Part shown: piece by piece, positions 9,470 to 18,946 of the stretch
How positions within the stretch are numbered: the stretch's first letter is position 1
Layout of the letters: each line of letters begins with the position of its first letter
Source of the DNA: a virus
IMG/VR virus record: IMGVR_UViG_3300027782_000304
Location: 1-27,142 of that record
Reading direction: 5' to 3' (one strand)
DNA: 27,142 bases
Made by a program: the position numbers and the translations under genes
The notes under the pieces: model-generated
What the model saw: only the letters and a program-made list of their open reading frames with translations
The model's database searches: none
What the model was told of the DNA's origin: nothing

Positions 9470-12400
9470 TTAAACGATTGCTAACGGAGCTCCTGTGTTA
9501 ACTAAACGTACTGGAATGTAGATGAATTCAATTGCTTTAACTGGTTTAATAGCAATATCTACATATAGTTCGTTACGGTCAATACGTTCTGGAGTGTTGT
9601 TAGTTGTATCGCAGACTACTAGGTAGTCGTAGATACCACGTTTAGCAACTAAGTCATTTAGCACAGCTTCAAAGCCTGCTTTAACTTGATTACGTGTAAT
9701 TGTATCGTTTGGTTCAAATATAAACGGACGAGCAACGCTATCAAGTACTAGTCTTAGATAACATACTAGTCGAGCTACATTAATACGATCCATTGCTGTA
9801 GTTTGCGCTGCACGTGTCTTTTGACCATATGCTACTAGACCAACACCAGGAAGTACCGTTAACGGGTTAACTCTAGCCGCGTATAGTACATCACGTAAGC
9901 CAACAGTTACACCAATGCTTTTCCAGTTGTTTTCGTCGTTAATGTCAACATAACCAATAGAACTTACATTATCAATTAAACCACGACGTACACCAGCTGG
10001 TGCAAACCATGGGAATGATAAGTTATCACTGCGGATAAATGTGCGTAACATCATATGGCTTGGTGGAGTAACAACACTGTTGCCATCTAAGTTTGTAGAT
10101 AGTCCACTCGGGTAGTAAACTCCTAAAAATTCACTGTTGCTGACCAGACCATCTTCACCATTAGATGCAGCCAATCCACTATTGTTTGCCCATGCCTGAA
10201 CTGACGTAGCATCACTTGGTAATGTCAATGGACTATCACCAATAATAAACGCAGTCTGTTTACGATCATTGTTGAGTGTAATCATCTCGCCAATCAATTC
10301 TGGATATCCTGGGCAGCAGATTAAATTGAACTGTTGTTGTTCTTCACGTAATGCTGTGCTTGATGAAATGGCCGATTTTAGTGCGCGAACAACAACACTG
10401 CGTTGAGCTTTGTGCCCGAAATACGGAACACCTGTTGTTGGATCTTCGCCACTGTAGCTTACCCATGCTGCAACTACTGCGGCCGGAGTTGGATCGTCAG
10501 CTAATGCTTGGCTATCAAATCTCTTGACATTATAGCTACTACGACGTGTATTAAATAATAATGTACCACGTGCATACAGTTGATAGCTAGGACAGTCATA
10601 ATCAATATAATTGCTACCCAATAAACTAGTAATAGCTGGAATATCAGCAGTGATTGGGTTTACATTGCCTGCGTTTGCCCAACGTGCATCAGCAAATAAA
10701 ATACCATCAGCTGACACTTGGTCTGTCTTGTCAATTAAACTCCATACTGCTGTAGTAGCATCATAGCGATACAGTACTGGCCAATTTTCTAAATCACTGG
10801 TATCAATCCATAGATCGCCTGATACCAATGATGTAACTCCGTCACTTTGTGTTGTTGGTCGTGCAGCACTAAAAATCGGTCCATTGTCATCTGTTAATGC
10901 TAGATTATATCCACGTGCATCATTGGCCACGGTCAAGTAACCTTTCCAACCTGTACCATCGTTGATCAAGATATCAGCTTCTAATGCACTGTTGTAATAC
11001 CATAATGTATTATCATTTGGATTACTGAATGGTGCAGTAGTACTTGGGCTGTATGTCAGCGATGTAAATGGGCTGGCCAAATACACACTGCCGGCTGTAA
11101 TCGTTTGAACTTTGCTGTCAATCAACAAACCTGCCTGGCTTAGTGGATTGCCTGTACCTAAGGTGATCTTAATAGTACCGCCAGCTAGGTGGCTAATACT
11201 AATAGCACCTGTTGATTCAATCGCGGCACTGATATTTGGAATACCTGCACCTAAAATATCACCAACTAAACCACCAGCATTTGTACTGGTCAATGTGATT
11301 ACTGCACTTGATGTAACTGCTGATGCCGGAACTGATGCTTCTAATGTAAAACTATTGCCAATACTATACGTTGCTGACCCGCCTGCAACGTTACCTGTAA
11401 TTTTTAATAAACCGCTTACGTTTTTAACATAAGGTTTAAATGATCCTGTGTTAGTTCCAAGAGTATCATATTTAACATATACCGTACCAACTGGTAGTCC
11501 TGATCCACCTGCTGTAAAATCTAATCCTTGAATTGCCACAGTATCACTAGAGTATAATGGAGCTGCTAGAGATTCCCAAGTAGCTAAAGCTGAACTGTAT
11601 TCTTTTAGTCCCCAGTTAGCACCATTACCTGTCGCTGATGTTTTAAACCACACACTACCGCCAGGTCTTGGATTAGTGTCACTTGTTCTCCATGCTGGAG
11701 GATTCGTATAACTTGCATATGAAACTGTTGGGCCAAGGATTGTTTTGTTGTTGGCTGCTCCATCTAATGCTGTGAATAAACCAACTTTACCTGCTAGGTC
11801 AACGTTACCAACACCGTATGCCGTACCTTTGGCAATATATAGTTTACCGTCTGGTAGGCTTAGGTTACCTGAACTGGCTGCAGTTGCATCTGCAAAAATT
11901 TCTAATGTGCCACTGCTGTTAACTCTAGAAGTAACACCTTTACCAATCATACCACTGTTAATAGCACTAGCCACACCTGTCATAGTTGTAGCACCAGTGG
12001 TAACTACAGTTTGATTTAGTACGACTTTATCGTAGATTGTTAAATTGCCTGGATTGGCAATTTGACCTGTGATGATAGGCACATTTGCTGCCCAGCTGCT
12101 GCTGCCTACTAGGCTCCATTGGTTACTGTAACCTTTATAGTAAACAGGATTGCTTGAACTAGTAGCTACTATAGCGTAGTCACCAATGGCACCAACTGAA
12201 CTTAAAGGTACACCACTGCTTAATTGTGTGTTGCTGGTTATCACTGTTGGCACTTGTATATCAAATGCTGAATCGCCTGGATACCATTCAAAAATACCCC
12301 AGTTAGTGGTATTTAGGTCTAACCAATACGTACCATCACTGACTTCACCTGTTGGGCGAATACTTGTACCTTCTAGCTGAGCTAGGTCAACGTTTGCACG

Positions 12401-12727
12401 TTGTATGTACATTTGATTACTTACGCCTAATGCGCTGTACGCTGTCAATAAACCGTATTCATTACGTTCATCAGCATTAATTGGTACTCCAGCTGAATCT
12501 ACTTGGAAAATTGGTGATCCAAATAAACTAACTAGATCTCGTTGGCTAGTTACTGTTATTAATTTTTCAGCGTTAGCTACTGTTGTACCAGTTGCTACTG
12601 TGCCGCTGGGATTTGATTTGTCTTGAGCAGTAGCAAGTAAAACATAAGCGATAGATCCTGCCGCAGTTGGTGTGTATTGACTTTCGTCAATTATCGTTAC
12701 TTGTACTCCAGGTGAAATAAGTGCCAT
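9470..12727 (-). CDS. gp18: Tail sheath protein gp18, enlarged
   Basis: 1085 residues against about 659 in T4. The N-terminus MALISPGVQVTIIDESQYTP and the C-terminal block from about 710 (ARGTLLFNTRRSSYNVKRF, then NSEFLGVYYPSG, RRGLIDNVSSIGYVDINDENNW, NPLTVLPGVGLVAYGQKT, ending PVKAIEFIYIPVRLVNTG) match the polymerising sheath core. Between about 130 and 710 lies a Ser/Thr/Gly/Asn-rich insertion with four related Trp-containing stretches: GTYWLDLNTTNWGIFEW, GSVWFKTSATG, NTLWYYNSALE and GDLWIDTSDLENWPVLYRY. This pattern suggests repeated small beta domains that would face outward from the contractile tail. A perfect TATAAATA late element lies 33 nt before the ATG, with GAGGAA as the ribosome-binding site. 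Identity is firm; the role of the insertion is unknown. Confidence 0.96.
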   Translation of the reverse strand: MALISPGVQVTIIDESQYTPTAAGSIAYVLLATAQDKSNPSGTVATGTTVANAEKLITVTSQRDLVSLFGSPIFQVDSAGVPINADERNEYGLLTAYSALGVSNQMYIQRANVDLAQLEGTSIRPTGEVSDGTYWLDLNTTNWGIFEWYPGDSAFDIQVPTVITSNTQLSSGVPLSSVGAIGDYAIVATSSSNPVYYKGYSNQWSLVGSSSWAANVPIITGQIANPGNLTIYDKVVLNQTVVTTGATTMTGVASAINSGMIGKGVTSRVNSSGTLEIFADATAASSGNLSLPDGKLYIAKGTAYGVGNVDLAGKVGLFTALDGAANNKTILGPTVSYASYTNPPAWRTSDTNPRPGGSVWFKTSATGNGANWGLKEYSSALATWESLAAPLYSSDTVAIQGLDFTAGGSGLPVGTVYVKYDTLGTNTGSFKPYVKNVSGLLKITGNVAGGSATYSIGNSFTLEASVPASAVTSSAVITLTSTNAGGLVGDILGAGIPNISAAIESTGAISISHLAGGTIKITLGTGNPLSQAGLLIDSKVQTITAGSVYLASPFTSLTYSPSTTAPFSNPNDNTLWYYNSALEADILINDGTGWKGYLTVANDARGYNLALTDDNGPIFSAARPTTQSDGVTSLVSGDLWIDTSDLENWPVLYRYDATTAVWSLIDKTDQVSADGILFADARWANAGNVNPITADIPAITSLLGSNYIDYDCPSYQLYARGTLLFNTRRSSYNVKRFDSQALADDPTPAAVVAAWVSYSGEDPTTGVPYFGHKAQRSVVVRALKSAISSSTALREEQQQFNLICCPGYPELIGEMITLNNDRKQTAFIIGDSPLTLPSDATSVQAWANNSGLAASNGEDGLVSNSEFLGVYYPSGLSTNLDGNSVVTPPSHMMLRTFIRSDNLSFPWFAPAGVRRGLIDNVSSIGYVDINDENNWKSIGVTVGLRDVLYAARVNPLTVLPGVGLVAYGQKTRAAQTTAMDRINVARLVCYLRLVLDSVARPFIFEPNDTITRNQVKAGFEAVLNDLVAKRGIYDYLVVCDTTNNTPERIDRNELYVDIAIKPVKAIEFIYIPVRLVNTGAPLAIV

Positions 12728-12830: not shown

Positions 12831-13181
12831 ATGCAATATCGTCCATTATGCAAAAGTTGTGGTAAAACACCCGCTGCTATTAATTATAAACGCAACGGAA
12901 CTACTCATTTTCGATCAAGGTGCACTAGTTGCCTGCGCAAAGATCGAAAACAGCGACTACAGCAACCAACCTGGATGTTAAAGGGATATAAAAAGAAACC
13001 ACACTGCGAAAAATGTGGTTTCAAAGCTAGATATAAAGAACAGTTGTTTGTCTACTATGTTGATGGTAATTTAAACAATGCGGATCAATTCAATTTAAAA
13101 ACCATCTGCGCTAATTGTCAATATGAAATTGCCCGAGAGGGTTTAGGATGGCGTCAAGGCGATCTCGTTCCGGATTATTGA
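12831..13181 (+). CDS. Zinc-ribbon protein with degenerate HNH motif
   Basis: 116 residues with four CxxC pairs: C7/C10, C31/C34, C59/C62 and C93/C96. The second half follows the plan of an HNH nuclease: CEKCGF, then FVYYVDGNLNNADQFNLKTICANCQ. Active HNH enzymes have D-H-(I/V)-D-G at the first catalytic site and often C-x-x-C-H at the end; here Y75-Y76 replaces D-H and Q97 replaces H. The zinc sites are kept while the metal/catalytic histidine is lost, so it is probably a DNA- or protein-binding relic and not a cutter. The N-terminal part is strongly basic. It is transcribed divergently from gp18, and its last 71 nt overlap the 3' end of the dNMP kinase gene on the other strand. Confidence 0.85.
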   Translation: MQYRPLCKSCGKTPAAINYKRNGTTHFRSRCTSCLRKDRKQRLQQPTWMLKGYKKKPHCEKCGFKARYKEQLFVYYVDGNLNNADQFNLKTICANCQYEIAREGLGWRQGDLVPDY

Positions 13182-13812
13182 TAATATCACGTTCAATCTG
13201 GTAATAAAGTTCTTCAATGGTGCCTTCGTTATTTAACACCATATCAAACTTAGATCCTACCCAAGCTGTTTCGCTAGCGTGGATGCCTAGTTGTTCTATG
13301 CGATTTTTGCTTAAGGTCCAGCTGGTATTTCTACTAGGACCTTGGTTCATGCTACTGGCATCTTCAAACCATTCGGGTTCGGATCCACGTTTAATACGTA
13401 CTACTCGGCCGCCTGCGTTGCGGATAGCTTTAATTTCATTGGGAAAGCGGCAGTCTGTAATAACGATGTCATCTGTTGACTTGCGTAGGCGATTTTCTAG
13501 GCTAGCTACCCACATGTCATCATTGAAACCTTTGCGGACTACTTCTGTGCCCCAATATTGTAGGACCCAGCGTGGAGTGATTTCCTGCCTTAGGCGATCG
13601 CTCCACCATTCATCACGAGTTTCACGCCAATCTCTTGATTGCTTACTACGGCCTTCTAGCATTTCACGATCCCACCCAAATACCTGCGCTACAGCATCTT
13701 TAAGGCTGTTAGCAAAGCTCTCTCGTTTATATCCATGAAAATTAACCAGATAATCAGCTACTGTGTCTTTACCAGATCCAATAAAGCCTACGATACCAAT
13801 GATTTTAGCCAT
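13111..13812 (-). CDS. gp1: Deoxynucleoside monophosphate kinase (T4 gene 1-like)
   Basis: 233 residues, close to the T4 enzyme (241). Transfers phosphate from ATP to dNMPs in the cytoplasm to feed phage DNA synthesis. P-loop GFIGSGKDT at 9-17, followed by VADYLVNFHGYKRESFANSLKDAVAQVFGW, which is typical of this family, then WVLQYWGTEVVRKGFNDDMWV at about 83-103 and DIVITDCRFPNE at about 114-126 (Asp-Cys-Arg-Phe-Pro-Asn-Glu is diagnostic). All key residues look intact. It is the only nucleotide-metabolism enzyme in the left half, set among structural genes. It has its own candidate sigma70 promoter inside a hairpin just upstream, and AGGGAG is the ribosome-binding site. Confidence 0.93.
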   Translation of the reverse strand: MAKIIGIVGFIGSGKDTVADYLVNFHGYKRESFANSLKDAVAQVFGWDREMLEGRSKQSRDWRETRDEWWSDRLRQEITPRWVLQYWGTEVVRKGFNDDMWVASLENRLRKSTDDIVITDCRFPNEIKAIRNAGGRVVRIKRGSEPEWFEDASSMNQGPSRNTSWTLSKNRIEQLGIHASETAWVGSKFDMVLNNEGTIEELYYQIERDIINNPERDRLDAILNPLGQFHIDN

Positions 13813-13813
13813 T

Positions 13814-13852
13814 AAAAAACTCCCTGTATATGTTTATTATACGGGAGTTTTT
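13814..13852 (-). terminator. Hairpin/terminator between gp13 and dNMP kinase
   Basis: Stem AAAAACTCCC/GGGAGTTTTT with inner GTATA/TATAC pairs and a single-base bulge, followed on the minus strand by a run of six U directly before the kinase ATG. It would end gp13 transcription. The same sequence holds the kinase ribosome-binding site in its downstream arm and a TATAAT in the upstream part. Confidence 0.75.
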
Positions 13853-13864
13853 GTCTACGGTCTA
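13836..13864 (-). promoter_or_regulatory. Candidate sigma70 promoter for dNMP kinase, inside a hairpin
   Basis: Perfect TATAAT at 13836-13841 with a weaker TAGACC (13859-13864) 17 nt upstream. The -10 lies in the upstream arm and loop of the terminator-like hairpin at 13814-13852. A transcript from here would start near 13829 and keep only the downstream arm with the AGGGAG ribosome-binding site. Confidence 0.55.
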
Positions 13865-13871
13865 GACTTTT

Positions 13872-14789
13872 TTAACCAGTTACCCAAGTTAATGGTGCAC
13901 CACCATCGACGTAGCGTTTAATTTCGTCATCTAAACGATCTAGCAGTGCCTGTCCTTCTGATTTAAGTGCTGTTCCGTTTAAAGTTGTGCCACCACCCGG
14001 GCCTGCGATCGTAGCAAATTTTTCACGTGCATTGCCTACAGCAATTAATATAAATGCCAAAGCATAGTCCTGTATCCACGGGAATGTACCCGGATCGTTT
14101 AACAGCATAATATCTGGTTTATAGTTGTCTAGGTGTAGCAATACGCTTTCTGATTGATTCTCATCAAAATTACGGCCTTGATTTGGAATCTTGCGGACCA
14201 AGGTAAGTTTCTTAGTCACTTTATTCCAGGTAAAGTTAATGTAGCCACCAAACATGGTCATTGCTAGTTCTTGATATTGAGTAAACAATTCGTAGTTGGC
14301 TAGCCCGCCAACGCGACCAGCTACCAGCATATATGTATTTAGGTATCCCGATGCAAATGGTTCAAATTGACTAGCAGTCGTACCTGATACTGATCCGATA
14401 CCGCGGCGGAAGATTGCACGGACATTCATGATCTCATTGGGTAAGATATATTCTTGTGTTTCAGGGTAGATATCTAAGAATGCATAGCTTTCTTCTACAC
14501 TGTTGGCTGAACGTTGGCGATAGCGTATCAGTGCTTGCTTGATACCCATCTCATAGTGCTCGCTGTCGGCCTCAACATCAACTATCTGATCGCCCAATCG
14601 TAGACGTATATAATCTTTGATTAGATTCTTTTGACTGTCTAATGATGTTAGCTGTGCTATTAAGTTAGCATCAAAAGCAATATGTCCAGCTCCAGTTCCA
14701 GTGTTAGCACTGAATAGAGATTCTGTAGTAAGGCTTAGATTAGCAGTTAGGTTACCGGTTGGTGATACGTTTGCTGGTAGTTCAGACAT
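13872..14789 (-). CDS. gp13: Neck protein gp13-like
   Basis: 305 residues, matching T4 gp13 (309). Part of the neck that joins head and tail after packaging. Typical stretches of aquatic T4-like gp13 are IKDYIRLRLGDQIVDVEADSEHYEMGIKQALIRYRQRS at about 57-95, YILPNEIMNVRAIFRRGIGS, INFTWNKVTKKLTLVRKIP, and PWIQDYALAFILIAVGNAREKFATIAGPGGGTTLNGTALKSEG in the last third, ending GGAPLTWVTG. The first ~35 residues are Asn/Ser/Thr-rich and variable. A late promoter AATAAATA lies 21 nt before the ATG and sits in the loop of a hairpin whose right arm carries the AGGA ribosome-binding site. A terminator follows the gene. Confidence 0.88.
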   Translation of the reverse strand: MSELPANVSPTGNLTANLSLTTESLFSANTGTGAGHIAFDANLIAQLTSLDSQKNLIKDYIRLRLGDQIVDVEADSEHYEMGIKQALIRYRQRSANSVEESYAFLDIYPETQEYILPNEIMNVRAIFRRGIGSVSGTTASQFEPFASGYLNTYMLVAGRVGGLANYELFTQYQELAMTMFGGYINFTWNKVTKKLTLVRKIPNQGRNFDENQSESVLLHLDNYKPDIMLLNDPGTFPWIQDYALAFILIAVGNAREKFATIAGPGGGTTLNGTALKSEGQALLDRLDDEIKRYVDGGAPLTWVTG

Positions 14790-14796
14790 GTAAATT

Positions 14797-14832
14797 ATCC
14801 TGTTATCGTGTATTTATTATCGACAACAGGAT
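14797..14832 (-). promoter_or_regulatory. Inverted repeat enclosing the gp13 late promoter and masking its RBS
   Basis: Twelve-base arms ATCCTGTTATCG and CGACAACAGGAT with one mismatch and a 12-nt loop that contains the late promoter. On the minus-strand RNA, the arm next to gp13 includes AGGA, the only ribosome-binding site for the ATG at 14789. There is no U-run, so it is not a simple terminator. Confidence 0.7.
14811..14818 (-). promoter_or_regulatory. Late promoter -10 element AATAAATA inside a hairpin loop
   Basis: AATAAATA on the minus strand, 21 nt before the gp13 ATG. It occupies the loop of the inverted repeat at 14797-14832, so transcripts started here lack the upstream arm and leave the AGGA ribosome-binding site free. 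Confidence 0.7.
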
Positions 14833-14862
14833 AAGTTTGGCTTTACGCTACCTTGAGGGGGA

Positions 14863-15078
14863 TTAGGTTTTTTGGATCTTTCTTAAACTGTCGCAGGTCT
14901 GCTGTATTTTAGCATAAACTTCTGGTGAATTAAATTCACCATCATCTGCTTGCTCTAATTGCTTATAATGTCCGCAATAGTAATCAATTATTTCTATTCT
15001 TAACTGTTGTGCTTCTTGTCTAACAGGTTCGTGTGCTAATGCCAATCCAATTACTACCATTGCCACTTCTATTTTCAT
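14863..15078 (-). CDS. Small protein with hydrophobic N-terminus, unknown
   Basis: 71 residues, not recognised. MKIEVAMVVIGLALAHEPVRQE gives a short hydrophobic stretch (about 5-15) that could be a weak signal or anchor, although the region is shorter than a usual membrane helix. The rest is polar with two cysteines (DYYC, QQTC) and a helical C-terminus. It overlaps the stop of the 397-residue gene by 4 nt (ATGA), a sign of translational coupling, and is the last member of the sigma70-driven gene block. No function can be proposed. Confidence 0.7.
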   Translation of the reverse strand: MKIEVAMVVIGLALAHEPVRQEAQQLRIEIIDYYCGHYKQLEQADDGEFNSPEVYAKIQQTCDSLRKIQKT

Positions 15079-16268
15079 TGTATTTTAAGTAAGATTGTGT
15101 CTGCGTTAATACGACCGTTGAGCTTAATTTCTGTAGTCTTGATGTTTTCTAAGAACTTGCGTAGTTCTACCTTATTACTAGCCAGGAACGCTTTAACCTG
15201 TTCTTCTGGTTTACGCAGAGTTTTCTGTGTGCTCTTATTAAGATCAAATCCAATGATGCTAGTACCTTTAACTCCAAGTGCGCCACCTTGGTCTTCAGCA
15301 ACATACTTGCCTAGTTTACGATTCTTAACGTTATAGACCCATAGCTGTTCTGCACCAACGATGTCTACTGGATTGATTGATACCAGCTTCATACCAGCAT
15401 CTTGTTTAAGATATTTTAAACTTTTAACTATTTTTTCTTTAGCTGGTGGCTTGCGGACTGCGGCTTTTTTAGTTGCTTTCTTAGTCTGATTGTAGGCAGT
15501 TAGGTCAGCGAATAGTTTGTCATAGAAAGCATCATAGCGTTTATAGTCGGCGGCTTTCATATAGCTGTAGGCGTCTTTAAGATCTTCATCTTTAGTTGTA
15601 CGTGCTTCACGCACTTCTGCACAACGTGGTTCAAATACTGCCTGTATTTTACCGATCAATACCTGTGGAACATTGTTCTTAGTTAGATATTCGTAGGCTT
15701 TAGGATCTACGGTTTCACCTGTGTACAATGCATCTTCAAGCATTTCAAAATACAAGATATGCTTCCTGGCTACTTCGTTCATACGGTCTTGGATCGTTGG
15801 AATATAGACTTGTGTTTTCTTTACTTCTGGCTTTTCTTCAAAATCTTCGTCATTGTCTGCTTTAAGCAATAGCACACGCTGAACCGCATCAAGGATATAT
15901 TCTACATGGTTGTCACGCAGGGGCATGCCACGTTCATGTGCTTTGATCAAGGCACACACTGTAAATGGTGTTAGGCTGTCGGCTGAGCGTTGATAACGAT
16001 CGATAGTAGTTTTATCTAATTTATGTAGCCCTTCGCTGCCTTCATGTTGACGTAACCATTGGACAACATACTTCTTAAGATCTTTGGTACTATAGTAATA
16101 ATTATAATAACGAAAACTATCACGTAGATGGTGGTCAAATTCTTCATTTGAAAAAGTCAAGGCGCGATCGTAATCCCAGGTAGGTTCTTTGCCTGTATAT
16201 TTTTCGTCAGCGAAATTGTTGCTACTGACTTTTGCTTTCTTTTTCATACCATCAATCTTGATTGCCAT
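15075..16268 (-). CDS. 397-residue conserved phage protein, unknown function
   Basis: Lys-rich, soluble, mostly helical. The N-terminal half contains FRYYNYYYSTKDLKKYVVQWLRQHE and ends near residue 140 in an acidic linker (ADNDEDFEEKPE). The middle has IPTIQDRMNEVARKHILYFEMLEDAL, and a Lys/Ala-rich linker KKATKKAAVRKPPAKEK lies near 262-278. The C-terminal domain is beta-rich (AEQLWVYNVKNRKLGKYVAED, GTSIIGFDLNKSTQKTLRKPEEQ, INADTILLKIQ). I recall the C-terminal block from unassigned aquatic T4-like phage proteins. No catalytic motif is visible. A near-consensus sigma70 promoter (16292-16319) with GAGAGGAT as the ribosome-binding site lies directly upstream, so early expression is likely. A nucleic-acid-associated role is conceivable from charge only. 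Confidence 0.88.
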   Translation of the reverse strand: MAIKIDGMKKKAKVSSNNFADEKYTGKEPTWDYDRALTFSNEEFDHHLRDSFRYYNYYYSTKDLKKYVVQWLRQHEGSEGLHKLDKTTIDRYQRSADSLTPFTVCALIKAHERGMPLRDNHVEYILDAVQRVLLLKADNDEDFEEKPEVKKTQVYIPTIQDRMNEVARKHILYFEMLEDALYTGETVDPKAYEYLTKNNVPQVLIGKIQAVFEPRCAEVREARTTKDEDLKDAYSYMKAADYKRYDAFYDKLFADLTAYNQTKKATKKAAVRKPPAKEKIVKSLKYLKQDAGMKLVSINPVDIVGAEQLWVYNVKNRKLGKYVAEDQGGALGVKGTSIIGFDLNKSTQKTLRKPEEQVKAFLASNKVELRKFLENIKTTEIKLNGRINADTILLKIQ

Positions 16269-16291: not shown

Positions 16292-16319
16292 ATTATACAG
16301 GATTTTATTCTGCTGTCAA
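16292..16319 (-). promoter_or_regulatory. Sigma70-type promoter TTGACA-N16-TATAAT
   Basis: Both hexamers are perfect: TTGACA at 16314-16319 and TATAAT at 16292-16297, with a 16-nt spacer. It lies at the end of the zinc-protein gene, 24 nt before the ATG of the 397-residue gene. Confidence 0.88.
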
Positions 16320-17169: not shown

Positions 17170-17198
17170 ATTATAGCATCTTTTGGTTTAAAAGTCAA
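17170..17198 (-). promoter_or_regulatory. Sigma70-type promoter TTGACT-N17-TATAAT (extended -10)
   Basis: TTGACT at 17193-17198, 17-nt spacer, perfect TATAAT at 17170-17175 with upstream TGC. It overlaps the stop region of the preceding small gene and drives the membrane-protein gene and those after it; AAGGAG follows before the ATG at 17146. Confidence 0.88.
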
Positions 17199-17466: not shown

Positions 17467-17495
17467 AGTATAACACATTTTGGCTAGCTTGTCAA
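17467..17495 (-). promoter_or_regulatory. Sigma70-type promoter TTGACA-N17-TATACT (extended -10)
   Basis: Consensus -35 TTGACA at 17490-17495, 17-nt spacer, TATACT at 17467-17472, preceded by TGT (extended -10). The -10 ends 5 nt before the ATG of the 17195-17461 gene, which predicts a leaderless mRNA. It resembles a host-recognised early phage promoter. Confidence 0.85.
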
Positions 17496-17499
17496 TGTC

Positions 17500-17507
17500 G
17501 ATAAATA
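17500..17507 (+). promoter_or_regulatory. Late promoter -10 element GATAAATA for gp14-gp15-Nudix
   Basis: GATAAATA on the plus strand, 20 nt before the gp14 ATG. It lies 4 nt from the -35 hexamer of the divergent sigma70 promoter at 17467-17495, so early leftward and late rightward transcription start from the same 50-bp gap. Confidence 0.78.
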
Positions 17508-17527: not shown

Positions 17528-18946
17528 ATGCCACGTCTAAGTTTATATCGTCCTGAAAAAGGTAATGACTACAAGTTCTTTGATCAACGTATCAGTGAAA
17601 TGTTCACAGTTGGTGGTGTGGATGTCAACATCCACAAATATCTTGGCCCTATAACACAGGGTAATGTCAGCATGACTGAACCGGGTGGTGCTACCACGCT
17701 AACCGGAATCCAAGACTTACTATTCTTAGAAAATCGTGATCGCAAGTATGATACCAGCATCTATACTATGCGTACGATTTATCGCCTAAATGACAACGAT
17801 TTTGATCTAACGCAATTTGGTTTATTCCTTACTGGCGATACTATGTTTGCGGTGTTCCATCTCAATGACATGATTGACAATATTGGTCGTAAGATCATGG
17901 TTGGTGATGTCATGGAACTACCAAACTTAAAAGATTATTATCCATTGGACGACAGCGTGCCAGTGGCGCTCAAACGCTACTATGTAGTCAATGATGCTAC
18001 ACGTGCTGCAGAAGGGTTTGCTCCAACTTGGTATCCACACCTATGGCGTGTGAAACTACAACCTCTAGTAGACAGCCAAGAATACAAAGATATATTAAAC
18101 AACCTTGATGCTGGTGAGAATACAGATTCTTCATTAGCAGATGTGCTTAGTACCTACAACAAATACATTGAAGTCAATGACGCCATCGTCAGTCGTGCTG
18201 AACAGGATGTGCCTAAGAGTGGGTACGACACTACCGCTATCTATACATTACCGGTTAACCCAGATGGTACACCGGGTGATCCTCTAGGACTTGATGCAAG
18301 TTCTACTGCTAACATAGCCGGTAACTTGTCTGCTAATACCACAACCAATTCAAGTACACTGTCTCCTGGCACTAAAGTGACTGGTTACTTAACAGAAGAT
18401 GCTCTGCCACCAAATGGTGCTACAGTTGCGGCTGGTATCGGTTTCCCAAATAGTCCAGTAACTGGTGCTTATTTCTTACGTTTAGACTATGTACCTAATC
18501 GACTATTCCGTTACGATGGTCGTCGTTGGGTTAAAATTGAGGATGCAGTGAGAACAAACCTAACACCTGGGTCAGCTAATAATGCTACGCAACGTAATAG
18601 TTTTGTCAATGACACTAATAAATTTATGAGCAACAGCGTGGCCTGGGATGCCATACGTATTTCTACTGCATACGTACCAGCGGCCAATTCTGCTACCTTG
18701 TCATTTAACTTCACTACCAAAACCACTGTGGTCAAGGTACCATATGTCAGTACCTATGGAGTTAGGACTACACTAAATGGTACGTCTATTACTAATACCA
18801 AAGCAAACGCAGTTGGAAATATCTCCTTTACTATTACTAATGCTATTGTTGCAGGTGATATATTAGAATACACAGTTTACGAACATGTGATCAACGAACG
18901 TCAGAGCCTGAGTCAAGCTCTGCGTCCTTCAGCGGATAACTTATAA
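17528..18946 (+). CDS. gp14: Neck protein gp14-like
   Basis: 472 residues; T4 gp14 is 256, so this is a long form. The N-terminal ~210 residues are the conserved part: DYKFFDQRISEMFTVGGVDVNIHKYLGP, TGIQDLLFLENRDRKYD, DFDLTQFGLFLTGDTMFAVFHLNDMIDNIGRKIMVGDVMELPNL and GFAPTWYPHLWRVKLQPLVDSQEY, as in aquatic T4-like neck proteins. The middle is Thr/Asn/Ser-rich, with a GAYFLRLDYVPNRLFRYDGRRWVK beta module at about 312-338, and the C-terminus is a beta-rich module ending NERQSLSQALRPS. Together with gp13 it closes the filled head and links it to the tail. Late promoter GATAAATA at 17500-17507, 20 nt upstream; AGGA ribosome-binding site. Confidence 0.82.
   Translation: MPRLSLYRPEKGNDYKFFDQRISEMFTVGGVDVNIHKYLGPITQGNVSMTEPGGATTLTGIQDLLFLENRDRKYDTSIYTMRTIYRLNDNDFDLTQFGLFLTGDTMFAVFHLNDMIDNIGRKIMVGDVMELPNLKDYYPLDDSVPVALKRYYVVNDATRAAEGFAPTWYPHLWRVKLQPLVDSQEYKDILNNLDAGENTDSSLADVLSTYNKYIEVNDAIVSRAEQDVPKSGYDTTAIYTLPVNPDGTPGDPLGLDASSTANIAGNLSANTTTNSSTLSPGTKVTGYLTEDALPPNGATVAAGIGFPNSPVTGAYFLRLDYVPNRLFRYDGRRWVKIEDAVRTNLTPGSANNATQRNSFVNDTNKFMSNSVAWDAIRISTAYVPAANSATLSFNFTTKTTVVKVPYVSTYGVRTTLNGTSITNTKANAVGNISFTITNAIVAGDILEYTVYEHVINERQSLSQALRPSADNL

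Follow-up and report, generated by a model that had tools for sequence, protein, structure and literature searches.

A late promoter within a Shine-Dalgarno-masking hairpin: a probable timing switch at the neck protein gene gp13 of T4-type phages

The hairpin at the start of the phage neck protein gene gp13 very probably acts as a cis-acting timing switch of the T4 gene e type, as judged from the DNA and its relatives. Host sigma70 RNA polymerase would transcribe the early block upstream (small ORFs and the phrog_11903 gene) and could continue into gp13. In the resulting long RNA, UUAUCCUGUUGUCG would pair with CGAUAACAGGAUAA and bury the gp13 Shine-Dalgarno (SD) sequence, preventing early translation of gp13. 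Later, polymerase carrying a phage gp55-type factor would initiate at AATAAATA in the loop, and the late RNA, starting at about 14805 without the 5' arm and with a leader of about 16 nt, would be translated freely. The hairpin structure and its conservation, the promoter motifs and the gene layout are observed directly; from these we infer the read-through RNA, its repression and late initiation at gp13. The mechanism is already known from T4; the gp13 case is new and widely conserved. A previous sequence-only reading of this DNA had proposed the same combination of a masked ribosome-binding site and an escaping late promoter, and each of its predictions that can be tested at the sequence level held.

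The window (the whole stretch of DNA analyzed, 27 kb in length) is a fragment of a T4-type phage with structural genes and has no near DNA matches among cultured phages. The features around gp13 are listed in Table 1. In addition, an ORF on the plus strand (12831-13181), which weakly matches an HNH endonuclease, overlaps the 3' end of the opposite-strand dNMP kinase gene.

Table 1. Positions of genes, promoters and hairpin elements in the window
Feature	Position	Strand	Remarks
Tail sheath gene	9470-12727		
dNMP kinase gene	13111-13812	-	Downstream of gp13
Sigma70-like promoter, TAGACC-N17-TATAAT	13836-13864	-	dNMP kinase gene
gp13, head-tail adaptor Ad2/neck protein	13872-14789	-	phrog_211
SD-masking hairpin of gp13	14795-14834	-	14-bp stem with one G·U
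Hairpin, 3' arm	14808-14795	-	
SD sequence of gp13, AGGA	14798-14801	-	Within 3' arm
Hairpin, loop	14820-14809	-	12 nt
T4-type late promoter motif, AATAAATA	14811-14818	-	Inside hairpin loop
Hairpin, 5' arm	14834-14821	-	
Small ORF, 71 aa	14863-15078	-	Between phrog_11903 and gp13; absent from most relatives
phrog_11903 gene	15075-16268	-	Function not known; co-directional, upstream of gp13
Sigma70 consensus (perfect), TTGACA-N16-TATAAT	16292-16319	-	51 nt before phrog_11903
Sigma70-like promoter, TTGACT-N17-TATAAT	17170-17198	-	11/12
Sigma70-like promoter, TTGACA-N17-TATACT	17467-17495	-	11/12; head of early block
Virion protein gene	17528-18946		Neighbor divergent from early block

In the minus-strand leader RNA of gp13, the elements follow in the order UUAUCCUGUUGUCG-AUAAUAAAUACA-CGAUAACAGGAUAA-UUUACAUG. 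A repeat search finds 17-nt arms (14792-14808 and 14821-14837) with 88% complementarity, and the uninterrupted stem is formed by 14795-14808 paired with 14821-14834. The sequence-only reading had described a 12-bp inverted repeat at 14789-14832; the repeat is present, but the stem is 2 bp longer and the limits are those in Table 1. The gp13 ATG begins at 14789, with a spacer of 8 nt from the AGGA. The hairpin has a predicted folding energy of -19.1 kcal/mol versus a shuffle mean of -7.6 kcal/mol (z, -4.7), and none of 200 shuffles is as stable, so that the folding energies suggested earlier as a check come out clearly on the side of a hairpin. In the predicted fold of the read-through RNA, opening the SD costs 12 kcal/mol, and the probability that the SD pairs upstream of the predicted late start is 1.00. 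The pairing of the AGGA claimed for a read-through transcript is thus reproduced, and it is predicted only when the upstream arm is included.

T4 late promoters are 8-bp TATA boxes that precede the start by about one helical turn (PMC2988020). By this layout, transcription from the loop promoter is predicted to start near 14805 and to give a gp13 leader of about 16 nt. Folded from 14806, the expected RNA has an energy of only -1.2 kcal/mol and is essentially unstructured. Among masked leaders with a late motif (see below), the partner of the SD lies upstream of the predicted late start in 91 of 91 cases. Both results agree with the earlier proposal that transcripts from the loop lack the upstream arm and are consequently free. 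Of 14 related genomes, 11 have a gp55-like frame; no such frame was found in the window, itself a fragment. For the CBB phage, a gp55-like factor and a late motif, ATAAATA, have been reported independently (PMC5259590).

A hairpin is found at the same place in eighty IMG/VR relatives (gp13 identity, 71 to 94%), with a TAAATA core between the arms, and is weak in a few of them (L060, L061, L070, and L075). In an alignment of 25 distinct leaders, 96% of cells are paired, versus 36 to 46% in slid controls, the cells not being independent events because related sequences share mutations. In seven stem pairs, both members have changed, and the covariation score exceeds that of every shuffle. Compensatory change in relatives, the comparison to which the sequence-only reading had pointed, is therefore present, and the objection that pairing might not be preserved there fails. 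Furthermore, the non-Watson-Crick cells of the 14-bp stem (n = 35) include 32 G·U and only one A·C when read on the gene strand, which indicates selection on the gene-strand RNA rather than on a DNA palindrome. The same asymmetry bears on the suggestion, attractive in that the repeat is palindromic and has the promoter at its center, that it works as DNA, either as a protein-binding dyad or as a cruciform around the late promoter. This is very improbable, as stem sequences turn over completely between lineages and no such dyad is present at other late promoters in the same genomes; the dyad or operator reading was rejected on the G·U/A·C asymmetry and the stem turnover.

The masking hairpin lies behind what appears to be an early block. 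The sequence-only reading had noted clear early promoters upstream on the same strand, and one perfect sigma70 consensus and two 11/12 matches are indeed located there (Table 1); a scan of that strand detects no terminator-like site between the perfect promoter and gp13. Among 88 distinct relatives, 39% have a sigma70 score of 11 to 12 out of 12 no more than 100 nt from phrog_11903, compared with 0 of 702 control stretches, and no such score is found upstream of gp13. The late motif, by comparison, precedes gp13 in 78 of the 88 relatives and phrog_11903 in only 1 of 88. The phrog_11903 gene is presumed to be early, and the gene upstream of gp13 is co-directional in every clade member with sufficient flank. 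The sigma70-like site of the downstream dNMP kinase gene is similar in many relatives, and the late motif is absent there. With a sigma70-like promoter on this side also, gp13 looks like a lone late gene amid early units.

Two other features of this region were recorded. At 17467-17507, where the early block adjoins the divergent virion gene, the minus-strand sigma70-like promoter and a plus-strand late motif, GATAAATA, overlap back to back. A second strong hairpin (13815-13852, minus strand; z, -4.8) directly precedes the dNMP kinase start. It is terminator-like, with a U-run, also buries the kinase SD and contains the TATAAT of the kinase's sigma70-like promoter; it is patchy across relatives, and in Munch a terminator has been annotated at this junction.

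Masking as a general property of late promoters is ruled out by a survey of 76 NATAAATA/start pairs in the window and 10 relative contigs, scored by SD opening cost. The nine distinct gp13 leaders, at 11 to 14 kcal/mol, are outliers among late sites; a cost of at least 6 kcal/mol is reached at only 3 of the 67 other late sites (baseplate wedge, tail-fiber-like and 972-aa genes), and the median excess of the other sites over shuffles is approximately zero (gp13 versus others, Fisher P = 1.5e-9). The scan performs as expected on T4, used as a positive control: costs are 14.9 kcal/mol in the long RNA and 2.8 kcal/mol in the short RNA of gene e, and 12.5 and 0 kcal/mol, respectively, for the I-TevII frame. 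Some of the other masked sites, such as that of the baseplate wedge gene, come after apparent late genes, and masking is thus not linked to early neighbors alone. At this wedge gene (phrog_10646) in two relatives (L091:5715 and L102:1988, both plus strand), the late promoter lies within an SD-masking hairpin behind a 125-aa gene.

Two profile scans that used the Atu_ph07 and GAP32 proteins as queries added more distant gp13 genes, mostly 35 to 51% identical to those queries. In many of them, the stem has no sequence in common with that of the window, and the leaders have a common layout, with a 5' arm, a late motif, a 3' arm containing the SD and then the ATG. A co-directional phrog_11903 gene precedes 101 distinct leaders (99 identified by HMM, plus the window and L001, with a small ORF between the genes). 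The opening cost is at least 6 kcal/mol in 79 of these 101, and 77 of the 101 beat shuffled upstream sequence (P ≤ 0.01); the median is 12 kcal/mol in the long RNA versus 0 kcal/mol in the short RNA. In the window the late motif lies in the loop, and in distant relatives it occupies the 5' arm; their late RNA would also lack that arm. In the jumbo phages Munch, GAP32 and XaC1 and their kin, the hairpins are unrelated, the motif again lies in the 5' arm and the genes upstream are of early type; because the stems share no sequence, a covariance model based on the close relatives misses the hairpins in cultured jumbo phages. Masking is weak or lacking in the remaining 22 of the 101 leaders, and PA5oct combines this neighbor with an unmasked gp13, indicating that the device is common rather than obligatory. 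GAP32 (JN882285) has further late-motif starts with a masked SD at 235913, 16348, 117516 and 278826 (all plus strand), that at 117516 belonging to the tail sheath gene.

The diversity of these stems also bears on whether the hairpin masks the SD by itself or instead serves as a binding site for a translational repressor of the phage. RNA-binding repressors that act at initiation regions are known from T4 (RegA, gp32 and gp43; PMC3014915). Nevertheless, the lineages share only the late-promoter core and the SD, their arms and loops differing otherwise, and an Rfam search with the gp13 hairpin matches no family, making a repressor site highly unlikely. It is possible, though less likely than not, that the RBS-masking hairpin at gp13 is an old module that T4-superfamily phages have kept or regained by structure alone, the stem sequence turning over completely, wherever an early block lies upstream; early synthesis of the neck protein would then be specifically harmful.

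Alternatively, the hairpin could be an intrinsic terminator, or a terminator and mask combined, that ends early transcription before gp13 and from which the late promoter escapes. The hairpins at the same place in XaC1, GAP32 and Munch are G+C richer and followed by a U-run, and a few relatives, e.g., L030 and L048, have U-rich tails. In the window, however, the stem is AU-rich, the tail UUUACAUG lacks a U-run and the terminator scan makes no call, and most relatives have only 1 to 4 T's within the 8 nt after the GGA. A G+C-rich stem with an immediate U-run is confined to the XaC1/GAP32/Munch group and is not found in the window. Moreover, a terminator has no need to pair the SD, yet the SD is paired in every one of the 91 masked leaders. 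Termination is therefore an improbable general explanation, while the hairpin may act as a combined terminator and mask in the XaC1/GAP32/Munch group.

The proposed masking switch has well-described precedents. In T4 gene e, the SD is sequestered in the long early RNA, and late promoters within the region encoding the 5' strand of the hairpin give late RNA that is free (PMC3014915). T4 I-TevI, I-TevII, I-TevIII and segB and Aeh1 mobE likewise combine upstream early or middle transcription, an RBS-sequestering hairpin and a late promoter (PMC2988022). The literature reports the mechanism for T4 e, soc, 49, 25, 26 and 39 and for homing genes, and the use of such hairpins for e, soc and other T4 genes, as stated in the sequence-only reading, is accurate for both named genes. 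The gp13 switch would resemble gene e in sequestering the SD in the long RNA and freeing it in the late RNA, and in both cases nudix-type or other early genes can stand upstream. Unlike gene e, it concerns a neck protein gene rather than a lysozyme gene, its hairpin consists of one simple 14-bp stem whose loop contains the promoter, and its range among phages is far wider, with conservation of structure and not of sequence. The arrangement is identical in kind to that of I-TevI/II/III, segB and mobE, but these are mobile homing genes, whereas gp13 is a core virion gene. T4 gene 13, which has the homologous function (head-tail adaptor Ad2), differs in that it follows wac and has an unmasked leader without a late motif (opening cost, 0.1 kcal/mol). 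No earlier report of such a hairpin on gp13 was found in a search that lay mostly outside subscription papers.

The T4 lysozyme-type hairpin would thus reach beyond lysis and homing genes to a core virion gene, which carries it across a wide range of environmental T4-like and jumbo phages, where selection maintains the pairing and not the sequence. The natural variants at hand provide material for asking why early gp13 would be harmful. In addition, they suggest a simple rule for predicting timing from sequence, namely, that a late gene behind early ones tends toward a mask.

Phages in which the neighborhood of gp13 differs are in keeping with the read-through idea. In Atu_ph07, the early block is absent, and the gene directly facing gp13 is the phrog_11591 virion gene; the gp13 leader there contains a late-like motif and no hairpin. 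The hairpin is also absent from marine lineages with a divergent gp13 neighbor, which fits read-through as the source of the long RNA, although an independent-pairs test of neighbor orientation against the hairpin, with about five orientation changes in the tree to draw on, has no power. In lineages with divergent neighbors (L137, L141, L163, L172, L176, L180, L192, L193, L201, L206, L155, L161, L257, and L261), the gp13 late motif ends 5 to 8 nt before the ATG and an SD is absent, predicting a leaderless or near-leaderless late gp13 mRNA.
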